Shown: positions 43,360 to 46,979 of the stretch, piece after piece
Position numbering within the stretch: position 1 is the stretch's first letter
How the letters are laid out: every line of letters starts with the position of its first letter
Source of the DNA: an uncultured Flavobacteriaceae bacterium
GTDB lineage: Bacteria; Bacteroidota; Bacteroidia; Flavobacteriales; Flavobacteriaceae
Assembly (NCBI GenBank): GCA_947487895.1
Contig: CANKYF010000017.1
Span: 1-64,000, forward strand
DNA: 64,000 nt
Direction: 5' to 3'
Notes under the pieces: generated by a model
What the model saw: the letters and a program-made list of their open reading frames with translations, nothing else
Told to the model about the DNA's origin: nothing
The model's database searches: none
Translations under genes and position numbers: made by a program

Positions 43360-44610
43360 ATGTTAAAAAAAATCATTGTTTTTCTATTTTCATTGTACTT
43401 CTTTCAATTTGCAAATTGTCAATTAAACGAGGTAAATCCGCCAGATTATATTAAGACCATAAATTTTAGAGGCAGCACACCAGAAACCCAACTTCCAGTG
43501 CTAAGATTTGGTGAGCCTGTTGTTTTAGAATTTGATGCTTTAAATGGAAACGAGGATGATTACTATTATAAAATTCAGCATTGTAATTTTGATTGGACGC
43601 CTTCGGTTTTGGCTAAATCTGAATATTTAGATGGTTTTGATAATCAACGCATAAGAGATTATGAAAACTCATACAATACGCTTCAAATTTTTTCTCATTA
43701 CAAATTAACTATACCTAATCAATTTTCAAGACGTCTTAAAAAATCGGGTAATTATTTAATAAGTATTTTCAATAGTGATGATGAATTGGTGTTTTCAAGA
43801 AAATTTATGATATATGAAGATAAAGTAAATGTTGGTATTTCACTAAAACGCTCTAGAGATATTCAATGTATTGATACTAAACAACGTACTGAAATCATTA
43901 TAGCTCCCAGATCTATTCAATTAAACAACCCAATGCAAACCATAAAGACCCTTGTGGTTCAAAACAACAACTTAAATACGGCAATTTCAAACTTAAAACC
44001 ACAATATACTGTTGGCAATCAACTTATTTATAGATATGATACAGAAGCTAGTTTTTGGGGAGGTAACGAGTATTTGTATTTTGAAAACAAAGATGTTAGA
44101 GCTGCTGCTACAGGCGTACAACGTATAGAGTTAGAAGACTTATATCACAATTACCTATATACCAATCTGCAACGTAGTAATAGACCATATACTTATAATC
44201 CAGATATTAATGGTAATTATCTGATAACCAATGTCAATAATACAGATGTTAGCATAGAATCTGATTATGTTTGGGTACATTTCTCATTTCAACCTAATCA
44301 AGGTTTTGACACTTCGCAATCTGTTTTTGTTTATGGTAATTTTAATAATTACGCTATAAACGATATTAATAAAATGACCTATGATGCGTCTAAAAATATT
44401 TACACCAAAGCTATTTTGTTAAAGCAAGGGTTTTACAATTATAAATTTGTCACTCTAAATGATGACACTGTAAATGAAGGTATTATAAGCGGTAACTTTT
44501 ATCAAACCGAGAATAATTATAAAGTACTAGTATATTATAGAGATTTAGCAGGGAGATATGACAAGATAATTGGCATGGGAGAGGCCTCTTCTATAAACAT
44601 TAGCAATTAA
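43360..44610 (+). CDS. Type IX secretion system plug protein (DUF5103)
   Basis: 416 residues. Signal peptide ends near F-A-N-C-Q (about 21). Contains the DUF5103 / T9SS plug domain: Y-Y-Y-K-I-Q-H-C-N-F-D-W-T-P and S-R-K-F-M-I-Y-E-D-K. The C-terminal third resembles an early-set Ig-like fold (V-F-V-Y-G-N-F-N-N-Y). In the SprA translocon structure a protein of this family closes the pore on its periplasmic side. Fits with the T9SS sorting domain on the lyase at 12753. Confidence 0.88.
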   Translation: MLKKIIVFLFSLYFFQFANCQLNEVNPPDYIKTINFRGSTPETQLPVLRFGEPVVLEFDALNGNEDDYYYKIQHCNFDWTPSVLAKSEYLDGFDNQRIRDYENSYNTLQIFSHYKLTIPNQFSRRLKKSGNYLISIFNSDDELVFSRKFMIYEDKVNVGISLKRSRDIQCIDTKQRTEIIIAPRSIQLNNPMQTIKTLVVQNNNLNTAISNLKPQYTVGNQLIYRYDTEASFWGGNEYLYFENKDVRAAATGVQRIELEDLYHNYLYTNLQRSNRPYTYNPDINGNYLITNVNNTDVSIESDYVWVHFSFQPNQGFDTSQSVFVYGNFNNYAINDINKMTYDASKNIYTKAILLKQGFYNYKFVTLNDDTVNEGIISGNFYQTENNYKVLVYYRDLAGRYDKIIGMGEASSINISN

Positions 44611-44656
44611 AACAGGCATTTCACCTAGTTTTTTAAGTACTACAGTAAAAAATTAC

Positions 44657-44664
44657 TACTTTTG
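44657..44664 (+). promoter_or_regulatory. -7 box for apaG
   Basis: tacttttg fits TAnnTTTG, 32 bp before the apaG ATG. Confidence 0.5.
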
Positions 44665-44696
44665 CTTCCTAAATATACTATTTATCAGCTCCTAAC

Positions 44697-45083
44697 ATGG
44701 TTCAACAAGTAACTAAAGGCATTAAAATTTCGGTAGAAACCACTTTTGAAGGCTCGTTTTATAGAAACTATAAAATACAGTATGCTTTTGGATACAAAGT
44801 AACCATTGAAAACCAGAGCAAAGATTCGGTACAATTACAATCACGCCATTGGGAAATTTTAGATTCTTTAAACAATGAAGAAGTTGTTGATGGAGAAGGT
44901 GTTATTGGAAAAAAGCCTGTATTAAAACCGGGTGAATCTCATACTTATACTTCTGGTTGTTTACTAACCTCGCCTTTTGGTGCTATGCAAGGTTACTATA
45001 CCATGGTGAACTTTACTACTACAAAAAAATTCACTGTAGATATTCCTACTTTTAAGTTAAGTGCTCCTTTTGCTATAAATTAA
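44697..45083 (+). CDS. apaG: ApaG-domain protein
   Basis: 128 residues. The ApaG fibronectin-like fold: V-T-I-E-N-Q-S-K-D-S-V-Q-L-Q-S-R-H-W, G-E-G-V-I-G-K-K-P, L-K-P-G-E-S-H-T-Y-T-S-G-C and G-x-M-Q-G-Y-Y-T-M are all diagnostic. In proteobacteria it is linked to Co/Mg resistance; role in Bacteroidota unproven. Followed directly by the repeat array. Confidence 0.93.
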   Translation: MVQQVTKGIKISVETTFEGSFYRNYKIQYAFGYKVTIENQSKDSVQLQSRHWEILDSLNNEEVVDGEGVIGKKPVLKPGESHTYTSGCLLTSPFGAMQGYYTMVNFTTTKKFTVDIPTFKLSAPFAIN

Positions 45084-45104
45084 TATTAGAAACTTAACAA
45101 ATAT

Positions 45105-45266
45105 GCCCTCATTGTGAGGCACTGCATTGAGCTTGTCGAAATGAGAGCAGCGACGCAACAACCTCTTTAGTTTTCAGAAGAACTAAAAAAAGCCGTCAAT
45201 CGATCTAACAGATTCTCACAGTCACTTCGTCAAGCTCAGCGCATCGCGTACCTCCCTCAGAATGAC
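45105..45266. repeat. MITE-like unit U1 of the GTCATTGTGAGG family
   Basis: Begins gccctcattgtgagg and ends ctccctcagaatgac. Preceded by acttaacaaatat and followed by the 16-bp spacer gaaataacattaagaa, the same flanks as unit U3, which carries a gene. The interior includes aagaactaaaaaaagccgtc, which is shared with U4. Confidence 0.8.
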
Positions 45267-45282
45267 GAAATAACATTAAGAA

Positions 45283-45395
45283 GCCGTCATTATGAGGAAC
45301 GTAGTGACGTGACAATCTTTGTCTTTTAATAAGAACTAAAAAAATTAGTCAATCCATTTAAAAGATTCTTACGGTCGTACCTCCCTCAGAATGAC
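45283..45395. repeat. MITE-like unit U2
   Basis: 113 bp. Left arm gccgtcattatgaggaacgt...gacaatcttt, right arm aaagattcttacggtcgtac...cagaatgac; the arms form an imperfect inverted repeat of about 36 bp and enclose only a short A-rich centre. Confidence 0.8.
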
Positions 45396-45411
45396 ACGAC
45401 TTAACAAATAT

Positions 45412-45825
45412 GCCGTCATTGTGAGGAGCTCAGCGACGTAACAATCTCTTAATCCAAAAGAGTTAACCAAAATAAAACAACCAACCATCTGACAAATCTT
45501 TCCATTCGGAATTTTCTTTTTCAATAAGATCTATCTTTTTATATCGCTTATACTTTTTAATCTGCTTTTCTCTTTCAATAGTCATTTCTATTGAGTTAAA
45601 AGTTTCAAAATAAACTAACTTTTCACAATTGTATTTTGAAGCAAAACCTTTAAAAGTCTTCGATTTATGCTGATACATACGTTTTACTAAATCACTAGTT
45701 ACTCCAGTATATAAGACTGTATTATTCTTATTAGTAATAATGTAAATGTATGATTGTTTCATAAAAAGAAATTTGTAGCTTTTCAATTTAAAAGATTCCT
45801 ACGCTCGTACCTCGCTCAGAATGAC
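45412..45825 (-). mobile_element. Unit U3: repeat arms enclosing a GIY-YIG gene
   Basis: Left arm gccgtcattgtgaggagctc...acaatctctt (45412-45450) and right arm aaaagattcctacgctcgta...cagaatgac (about 45790-45825) match the two arms of U2, but a nuclease gene occupies the centre. 414 bp in all. It has the same upstream flank (acttaacaaatat) and downstream 16-bp spacer as U1. This is the arrangement expected of an autonomous element beside deletion derivatives. Confidence 0.65.
45463..45762 (-). CDS. GIY-YIG nuclease family protein inside a repeat unit
   Basis: 99 residues from the ATG at 45762 (an ATG at 45786 lies in repeat-derived sequence). The single domain: Y-I-Y-I-I-T-N and L-Y-T-G-V-T-S-D-L are the GIY-YIG strands, with R-M-Y-Q-H-K after and a later E-R-E-K-Q-I-K-K-Y-K-R (catalytic Glu region). 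Matches the short UvrC N-terminal-like UPF0213 type. It may cut DNA at the flanking palindromic repeats; this is inference. Its C-terminal W-K-D-L-S ends close to the left arm. Confidence 0.9.
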   Translation of the reverse strand: MKQSYIYIITNKNNTVLYTGVTSDLVKRMYQHKSKTFKGFASKYNCEKLVYFETFNSIEMTIEREKQIKKYKRYKKIDLIEKENSEWKDLSDGWLFYFG

Positions 45826-45841
45826 GAAATAACATTAAGAA

Positions 45842-45978
45842 GCCGTCATTGTGAGGAACGTAGTGACGTGACAATCTTTGTTTTTTAAGAAGAACTAAAA
45901 AAAGCCGTCAATCCATCTAACAGATTCTCACGGTCACTTCGTCAAGCTCAGCGCATCGCGTACCTCGCTCAGAATGAC
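45842..45978. repeat. MITE-like unit U4
   Basis: 137 bp. Left arm gccgtcattgtgaggaacg...gacaatctttg; right arm cagattctcacggtcacttc...cagaatgac. Shares the left half with U2 and the right half with U1. It ends 9 bp before the stop of the convergent-side gene at 45987. Confidence 0.8.
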
Positions 45979-45986
45979 GTCTCCAA

Positions 45987-46979
45987 TCAATTAATTCTAT
46001 GAAACCGAAAAACAGTACCATTTTGCTCCACATGAAAGAATTTACAATTAGAATAGTGCACAAACTTATAATCTAAACTGAAGTTAAAAGCATTATTTTC
46101 AACCTTAAAAATAGCGTCACAATCTACATTTCCGTAAGGAGAAAGTCTTCTAAAACGGTATTCTGAAGCATTTTCAGCTTCATGTAATTCAAACCAAGCA
46201 CCCGCAGCTATACCAGAGAGCCACTGTGCATTTTCATGAACACCTTCAGCCTGTTTAGGTTGCAGAGTCCCTACTAAATTCACTTTATGACCTTTCAATC
46301 TATCCAAGAAATAGCTTAGGTTTTCACTTTTTTGTGAACCAGTAAATTTTGAAATATCTCCAGTTTCTGACACCTCATAAGGATAATTTTCAGTATCTGC
46401 TAACAGTACATTCCCCACTGTACTTGGTGTAAACCATTTAGACTTTATAAGTTGTTTCTTAATCTTAGCATTGGTTACAGAAGCTATTAAACTATCGGTT
46501 ACAAAACGAGCACAATTACAAGCATCTTTAACAAACGCCGCATAACGTATAAAATGTTGCTCTTGCATTTTCGTTATGTGTGTTCTTGCTTTTTTATAAT
46601 CAACGGCATTACAAACAGATGCCACCAATTTACCATCTCCATGAGTGAGTTTAGGATGTGTGCTTAAAAACTCTAGAATATCATTAAGGTTTTTAATCTT
46701 ATCGTTTTCAATAGTTGCTTTTATAGGAAAATGCAATTCGTTATCGGTATCACTCCCACGAACGCGACCATTTGGTTCTGGGGTGATGTAACGTCCAAAA
46801 TCATGATATTCTAAAACTCCCGTTTCTTTATCTATTAAAACCAATGCTGCATGACCAGCCCTCAAGTAGTCCTTTTTACCTATACCAATAAATCTTAAAA
46901 AGGGAGAATACCATTCATCAGCTACCATAACAATGGTTTCAGGATAGGCCAATGTTAAAATAATACCTGTATTATTCAT
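45987..46979 (-). CDS. DUF6695-like protein, coupled to an NRDE protein
   Basis: 330 residues, no signal peptide. Conserved parts include E-Y-H-D-F-G-R-Y-I-T-P, G-R-V-R-G-S-D-T-D-N-E-L, N-C-A-R-F-V-T-D-S-L and W-F-T-P-S-T-V-G-N-V. The H-x(n)-N-C-A-R pattern recalls a papain-like or LRAT/NlpC-like Cys-His arrangement, but I know the family only as DUF6695 of unknown function. Its start overlaps the NRDE gene end by 8 bp, so they are made together. Confidence 0.78.
   Translation of the reverse strand: MNNTGIILTLAYPETIVMVADEWYSPFLRFIGIGKKDYLRAGHAALVLIDKETGVLEYHDFGRYITPEPNGRVRGSDTDNELHFPIKATIENDKIKNLNDILEFLSTHPKLTHGDGKLVASVCNAVDYKKARTHITKMQEQHFIRYAAFVKDACNCARFVTDSLIASVTNAKIKKQLIKSKWFTPSTVGNVLLADTENYPYEVSETGDISKFTGSQKSENLSYFLDRLKGHKVNLVGTLQPKQAEGVHENAQWLSGIAAGAWFELHEAENASEYRFRRLSPYGNVDCDAIFKVENNAFNFSLDYKFVHYSNCKFFHVEQNGTVFRFHRIN

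Follow-up and report, generated by a model that had tools for sequence, protein, structure and literature searches.

The closest described counterpart of the locus presented here is the REP/RAYT system (REPtron) with its REPINs, in which an enzyme gene lies inside inverted hairpin repeats whose one end bears an unpaired tag, inverted pairs without a gene are found elsewhere in the genome, and repeat type goes with enzyme lineage. The RAYT is a Y1 HUH transposase, and the tag of its repeats is GTAG (or GGAG). GIY-YIG is a homing-endonuclease fold; free-standing GIY-YIG homing endonucleases take a conserved gene site as their target, and an intron or intein context is also typical of such enzymes.

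The CGTC REPs form a large class of bacterial repeats for which the 2013 description gives no dedicated enzyme. In the parts of that description drawn on here, the superfamily is defined by the tags CGTC, TGTC and CCTC, by an A-T pair that opens the stem and by CCA tails; Neisseria dRS3 is equated with CGTC-1, and dRS3 and the Rickettsia elements RPE-4 and RPE-6 are placed in the superfamily (Di Nocera et al. 2013, PMC3733652). The same parts state that these repeats 'apparently lack a dedicated transposase', report no association with transposase genes and suggest that the repeats are perhaps heading for extinction (PMC3733652). The UPF0213/COG2827 proteins, kin of Escherichia coli YhbQ and Bacillus subtilis YazA and Slx1-like, are described as possible repair nucleases; a 2007 paper proposes that three Caulobacter genes of this type act in repair, and one of the three has an SOS box (PMC1839093). 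A link between UPF0213/COG2827 and REPs is absent from the texts searched. No literature linking GIY-YIG to REP, RAYT, REPIN, dRS3, palindromic repeats or MITEs was found in the sources searched, which exclude subscription journals and preprints, so that an earlier description is possible. Since enzyme and fitting repeat are found together in distantly related bacteria as well, the small GIY-YIG enzyme is a strong candidate for the so far missing agent by which a common bacterial repeat family spreads.

The repeat array and its nuclease gene

The window, which is the whole stretch of 64,000 nucleotides analysed from an uncultured Flavobacteriaceae bacterium, contains a repeat array at 45107-45979. 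Its left neighbour is apaG (44697-45083, plus strand; DUF525/ApaG domain, PF04379) and its right neighbour is a TseH-like/DUF6695 gene (45987-46979, minus strand; PF25218) that is convergent to apaG. The first-pass annotation had described four repeat units, one of them with a gene, and this arrangement was recovered with coordinates and unit lengths shifted by a few bases. The gene-less units, to which no strand is assigned, are U1 (45107-45267), U2 (45285-45395) and U4 (45844-45979), and U3 (45414-45826) encloses an intact GIY-YIG gene. The units had been said to share the same imperfect inverted arms; the units are real, but the two arms of a unit are related, non-identical types (GTCATTcTGAG.., GTCATTgTGAGG..). 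Both arms of U3 point their heads outward. The type B arm (CGTCATTGTGAGG..ACAATCT; 45414-45447, plus strand; exact pattern site 45415-45447) lies on the 3' side of the gene and the type A arm (CGTCATTCTGAG..GAATCT; 45783-45826, minus strand; 0 mismatches to arm A) on its 5' side, both being evident in the direct repeats.

U1 and U3 do have a common upstream flank, as had been noted, of 28 nt at 96% identity (45092-45119 and 45399-45426). Their common downstream spacer is equally real and falls within a 130-nt direct repeat of 92% identity (45247-45376 and 45806-45935), in which the end of U1, the spacer and U2 match the end of U3, the spacer and U4. These two direct repeats suggest that the array is a two-unit block in duplicate, only one copy of which has the gene. 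The whole gene-less units U2 and U4 fold better than shuffled sequences (z of -3.1 and -3.3), and single arms of the window's repeat, of which two were folded, do not. Blastn places the array's sequences at 12 further sites in the genome, consisting of 10 repeats and two gene paralogues, and the type B arm pattern has eight sites in the genome, three of them inside the window. The loops of U1 and U4 harbor pieces of another REP family (TTGAGCTTGTCGAA / TTCGTCAAGCTCAG; 45120-45150 and 45938-45951), so that repeats are nested in repeat loops; the loops of U1 are enlarged by such a piece.

The gene (45463-45762, minus strand) encodes a stand-alone nuclease of 99 amino acids and is complete, as annotated (PF01541, E=6.3e-16). 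The Pfam domains of the protein are GIY-YIG and, weakly, T5orf172, with no others and thus no Y1 HUH domain of the RAYT kind. Residues Y7, Y18, G20, R28, H32 and E65, which we take to be the catalytic residues of the GIY-YIG motifs, are invariant in an alignment of 25 relatives, and the catalytic domain has its active-site residues intact, a trait of GIY-YIG homing endonucleases. The profile of this alignment matches the UPF0213 structures 1zg2 and 1ywl, and UvrC and Slx1 weakly; UPF0213/COG2827 proteins are like the window enzyme in domain and similar in size.

PF01541 is found at 12 places in the window's genome, three in large frames (436, 604 and 468 aa) and nine in small genes, two of which contain stops. 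By eye, each small GIY-YIG gene of this genome adjoins inverted repeats or a tRNA gene (L004, L009), and the flanking repeat varies from gene to gene. Stops interrupt the copies L005 and L012 and the one at the L135 locus. Across genomes, the number of matches to the enzyme alignment ranges from 0 to 23, some of them larger GIY-YIG proteins.

The nuclease may alternatively be a host repair or recombination enzyme (Slx1/Cho-like) that works on REP cruciforms and is kept adjacent to them by selection for regulation or repeat control, with no spreading involved. The nearest solved structures, which are UPF0213 with weaker UvrC and Slx1 matches, and the repair role proposed in 2007 for the Caulobacter genes favor such a role. 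The patchy, multi-copy presence of the gene and the copies with stops point instead to a mobile gene, and clade-specific repeats and presence or absence between close strains are likewise signs of a mobile gene, not of housekeeping. A host repair function is therefore regarded as improbable.

Several frames in these genomes are unusual in architecture. A 436-aa frame of genome G000 (L001, 1476-2787, contig C18) joins a small GIY-YIG domain to a long downstream protein sequence and is perhaps a fusion across a read-through repeat; a 435-aa frame of G066 may resemble it. The 5' extensions of the GIY-YIG frames L058, L068, L075 and L082 run through REPs and would give REP-encoded N-terminal peptides (e.g. 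HSERSEES), which are probably annotation artefacts if counted in the protein. In the 3.0-Mb genome G090, from a member of the window's family, the small GIY-YIG alignment has 23 matches, and three or more of these cluster on a single contig.

Inverted repeats around small GIY-YIG genes

Bracketing was scored by aligning up to 250 bp upstream of each gene to the reverse complement of up to 250 bp downstream, with a threshold score of at least 28. The 150 distinct small GIY-YIG genes, of which 147 had enough flank (L055, L134 and L138 had too little), come from three sets. The related set holds 84 genes from 24 of 39 searched genomes, among the matches listed. The phylum set holds 49 genes at 47 loci, each the best-listed match of 47 of the 78 match-bearing genomes (118 searched), and is biased to good matches. 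The plasmid-collection set holds 14 genes, taken from 15 of the 32 records in which a relative occurs. Set aside from the count were GIY-YIG proteins over 230 aa (including L108), duplicates of one gene, L001, UvrC-type or other large-frame loci (L010, L011, L046, L048, L051-L054) and loci fetched for other purposes (L013-L025, L095-L101, L117-L126, L141).

The first-pass annotation had proposed that the flanks of small GIY-YIG genes would be richer in repeats than those of other genes. This expectation was strongly confirmed, also beyond Bacteroidota: 76 of the 147 genes reach the threshold vs 13 of 303 control ORFs of the same loci and 6 of 114 control ORFs with gaps of at least 80 bp on both sides. 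Fisher's test gives 3e-31 against the 303 controls and 2e-17 against the gap controls, with genes taken as independent and some of them being orthologues. The passing genes comprise 44/84 of the relatives, 21/49 of the phylum set and 11/14 of the named plasmid-collection genes. At a score of at least 36, the proportions are 42/147 vs 3/303. Hairpins with a GTC head facing outward stand on both sides of 31/147 genes, in comparison with 0/114 gap controls and 2/303 controls; a looser hairpin definition gives 34/147 vs 2/114 and 9/303. Tagged hairpins face inward on both sides at 10/147 genes vs 2/114 gap controls. Small GIY-YIG genes and REP-type repeats are associated, a conclusion held with near certainty.

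Two figures count against the reading of the enzyme as a partner of REPs. On a loose definition, any REP-like hairpin lies in reach of 57/114 gap controls, and 71 of the 147 genes score below 28; apart from the 17 tRNA-locus genes among the 147, the arms of these are imperfect, one-sided or absent. Passive hitch-hiking, in which REPs gather in loose intergenic space where unneeded small genes survive, draws on the fact that REPs are intergenic and common and that 13/303 control ORFs also have flanking inverted repeats. This explanation is largely refuted by the gap controls, 6/114 of which are bracketed and none of which has an outward-headed pair; repeat types are also matched to clades, with exact copies found only alongside a cognate gene, and hitch-hiking is considered highly improbable.

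The named loci extend the pattern to other phyla, as bracketing passes at alphaproteobacterial, betaproteobacterial and cyanobacterial loci. A score of at least 36 is reached by 11 of the 15 named plasmid-collection loci: Planktothrix, Neorhizobium, Rhizobium CIAT894, Sinorhizobium meliloti, Neisseria gonorrhoeae, Shinella, Azospirillum, Novosphingobium, Spirosoma and two from Sphingobium, which represent a single locus present in two strains. Scores of 20 or less were obtained for Aeromonas, Sinorhizobium K101, Photobacterium and R. tumorigenes. The failure of two gammaproteobacterial loci (scores 20 and 16) counts against the partner-enzyme reading, as does a scan of genome contigs with the window protein, in which 6 of the 20 loci with an open frame, out of 21 found, score at least 28. 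Those that pass include Mcinerneyibacterium, a Clostridia MAG and a Caulobacteraceae MAG. A scan of viral contigs gave no relative. On a Planktothrix agardhii plasmid, a REP-bracketed GIY-YIG gene (L102, 1501-1785) has a type IIL restriction-modification gene (MmeI) on one side and the DISARM gene drmA on the other.

Repeat types, enzyme lineages and orthologous sites

A typical arm reads 5'-(C)GTCA-stem-loop-stem-TC(CA) and has its tag outermost. The short arms of L005, L008, L071, L111 and L114 fit a stem of 8-9 bp starting with A-T, a loop of 4-5 nt and a CCA-like tail, and the GIY-YIG gene of N. gonorrhoeae sits between CGTCATTCCCGCGCAGGCGGGAATC-type arms. As in CGTC REPs, the unpaired tag stands at one end only: repeat family P1 has 91 one-headed and 0 two-headed sites in 39 genomes, and U1 has the head CCTC, a variant of CGTC. 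In family P3, the stem covaries, with 97/105 sites keeping both variable Watson-Crick pairs in comparison with a shuffled mean of 21 and maximum of 35. Paired units are seen in U2 and U4 and in genome G100 at 308650/308696, 317864/317910, 1103263/1103309 and 1708553/1708599.

Within the cited parts of its description, the CGTC superfamily is like these repeats in its tag (CGTC/TGTC/CCTC) and, as regards the short arms, in its A-T stem start, small loop and TCC/CCA tail; paired units occur in both, and its hosts overlap the tblastn matches (Azospirillum lipoferum, Sinorhizobium meliloti, Neisseria and Bacteroidetes). It differs in that no dedicated transposase is reported there, whereas the repeats studied here enclose GIY-YIG genes. 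Compared with the four CGTC families covered in those parts, the window's repeat is longer and less perfect, and its arms are without the form of an 8-9 bp stem and 4-5 nt loop. The arms of GIY-YIG genes thus appear to fit the CGTC REP superfamily, the window's own being a long, imperfect version. This goes beyond the first-pass annotation in connecting the arms with a known superfamily whose partner enzyme is reported missing, and in suggesting that enzyme clades have their own repeats.

Arm similarity and protein similarity between genomes are correlated over 76 genes (Spearman 0.33; Mantel, 0/500 permutations), and part of this correlation is fed by orthologues at the same site, since 26/144 close protein pairs are syntenic, sharing a neighbour gene within the fetched stretches. 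Among same-genome pairs with protein identity below 0.4, similar arms occur in 0/27. For three repeat families, 7/91, 6/10 and 11/111 REP sites are no more than 400 bp away from a listed small GIY-YIG gene, with at most 0.37, 0.04 and 0.46 expected, respectively. The type B arm, in a pattern written from the arms of G000 and G002 themselves, has 12 sites without mismatch, seven in G000 and five in G002, and none in the 37 other genomes; these two genomes hold the intact cognate genes L006 (G000) and L070 (G002). With one or two mismatches, one further site appears in G000, three in G002 and one each in G004, G005, G011, G021 and G027; the one-mismatch copy of G005 lies beside a shorter relative of the gene (L131).

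The REP family group GTCATNCCNGC.. is present in 26/118 Bacteroidota genomes, and a match to the enzyme alignment is found in 25 of these 26 vs 53/92 of the genomes without the REP (p=1.1e-4, uncorrected for relatedness). Against the partner-enzyme reading stand the exception, G116, with eight REPs and no gene match, and the P1-rich genomes G000 (14 copies) and G012 (17), which have no confirmed intact cognate gene. Eight close relatives of the window gene from named records are flanked by its repeat type on either side, six of them in other neighbourhoods; the upstream arms of L196 point the other way and the right arm of L194 is imperfect. The inverted-repeat score passes for one of the eight (L194), the low score of the others being due to the difference between arms A and B.

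At the window's site, no array follows apaG in any of six same-genus genomes. The right neighbour begins at most 123 bp after apaG in five of the six congeners, in three of which it overlaps the end of apaG, and in the sixth (L097) synteny is broken after apaG; congener L100 retains a short REP-like remnant. In Flavivirga aquimarina and Hyunsoonleella aquatilis, however, this place is filled by the same gene, so the window insertion is either old and was lost several times or came more than once. The gene at this site can accordingly be old and inherited, and frequent recent mobility here appears unsupported, as the site is filled in these two species and no precise junction was read. Relatives of 74-87% identity lie in other neighbourhoods (L189-L192, which share one neighbourhood, L070, L131, L195 and L196), where the 2-3 kb fetched contain none of the window's neighbour genes.

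Filled and unfilled sites also occur in Alphaproteobacteria. In Azospirillum lipoferum the unit lies between sufB and sufC, and three relatives of 95-96% identity are without it; Shinella has filled and unfilled versions of a site. One Sphingobium site, aligned with L123 left out, differs between strains: some have REP-gene-REP there, two have one two-headed REP instead (imperfect in one of the two), and others are without both. The two-headed strains are TomTYG64 (L121) and TomTYG74 (L120), with the REP between fnrL and a response regulator gene, and it looks as if the unit was lost by recombination through the stem halves, or as if this were the pre-insertion state. A loop-to-loop exchange mechanism, drawn from this REP, was rejected as not general given the 39 genomes without two-headed P1 sites. 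The comparison of strains for empty sites that the first-pass annotation had called for thus yielded presence and absence at orthologous sites, and in three alphaproteobacterial groups and the window's genus the flanks are too diverged for a clean junction or target duplication to be read. No fresh REP insertions were flagged in two 50-kb plasmid pairs, with a flank filter so strict that it missed the known sufB/sufC insertion.

The single Sphingobium site that holds either REP-gene-REP or one two-headed REP would also suit a homing-endonuclease-like parasite. In such a case the REPs would spread otherwise, and the nuclease would cut gene-free REPs and be copied in by break repair, so that its gene ends up between the arms. 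The fold is of the homing-endonuclease type, the gene lies between two arms of an otherwise gene-less unit, and free-standing GIY-YIG homing endonucleases are alike both in catalytic domain and in a gene enclosed by its putative target. Here, however, a dispersed hairpin repeat family would be the target in place of a conserved gene site. The window gene lies between two convergent genes, and Rfam gives no intron family at 44600-46600 (two matches under the gathering score, both implausible). The window's REP arm occurs without mismatch in two of the 39 genomes only, both of which have the intact cognate gene, and genomes with the REP nearly always have the gene as well (25/26); such patterns would not be required if a parasite had come late to REPs that spread independently. 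Two-headed P1 REPs are absent from the 39 genomes. A parasite of this kind is considered unlikely.

A candidate dispersal mechanism and the tRNA-associated clade

The reading preferred here, and held to be fairly probable, is that the small GIY-YIG nuclease is a dedicated partner enzyme that acts on its own REPs and is responsible for their spread. The features observed are inverted bracketing, often outward, the one-headed polarity of P1, the covariation of P3, clade-matched repeats, co-occurrence of REP and gene, intact active-site residues and filled and empty orthologous sites. Of a REP/RAYT-like system one would expect tagged hairpins, outward pairing, a nuclease matched to the repeats with intact active-site residues, and dispersed gene-less pairs. 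The parallel with REP/RAYT drawn in the first-pass annotation is apt in that the enzyme gene is flanked by inverted cognate REPs with copies dispersed in the genome; the differences are the GIY-YIG nuclease in place of a Y1 HUH enzyme and the tag, since arms with a visible tag have (C)GTCA or a near variant.

In the proposed mechanism, the gene would belong together with its two outward-headed repeats as a single unit, in which a small GIY-YIG nuclease has a CGTC-type REP of its own, and the gene-less units would be non-autonomous satellites, as REPs and REPINs are to RAYT. The enzyme would recognise the folded hairpin with its unpaired (C)GTCA head and nick at the hairpin or head of a single-stranded or extruded repeat; the repeat, or rarely the whole unit, would then be copied elsewhere by host repair or recombination. 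To our knowledge, GIY-YIG enzymes hydrolyse DNA and do not join it. Joining would hence fall to the host, its chemistry would have to differ from that of REP/RAYT, and no fixed target duplication is predicted. The role of mover or maintainer that had been suggested for the enzyme is an inference of this kind.

A broader proposal, given about even weight, is that small GIY-YIGs are the missing dispersal enzymes of the CGTC REP superfamily. They would be widespread minimal elements in which a hydrolytic nuclease of ∼100 residues nicks the tagged hairpin and host repair finishes the process, with a sister clade doing the same at tRNA gene ends. If true, a question that has stood for more than ten years can be put to the test with a single protein and a single oligonucleotide, the common annotations 'GIY-YIG nuclease family protein' and 'excinuclease ABC subunit C' gain a function, and RAYT-like REP biology has evolved with two unrelated nuclease folds.

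The tRNA-associated clade may be a parallel system. A tRNA gene lies within 200 bp of 15/150 small GIY-YIG genes vs 9/303 controls, and 13 of these 15 belong to a short (∼80-aa) class of 19, defined by motif after the tRNA-adjacent genes had been seen. The inclusion of this clade in the tested set dilutes the REP bracketing figures, as tRNA-type loci account for 17/147 genes in the bracketing test and three of them pass. The tRNA-site loci are L004, L009, L032, L038, L039, L049, L050, L055, L074, L077, L078, L127, L133 and L137. The tRNAs concerned are Val, Arg, Met, His and Pro, and several genes of the short clade overlap the end of a tRNA, lie between two tRNA-like copies or occur in tandem.
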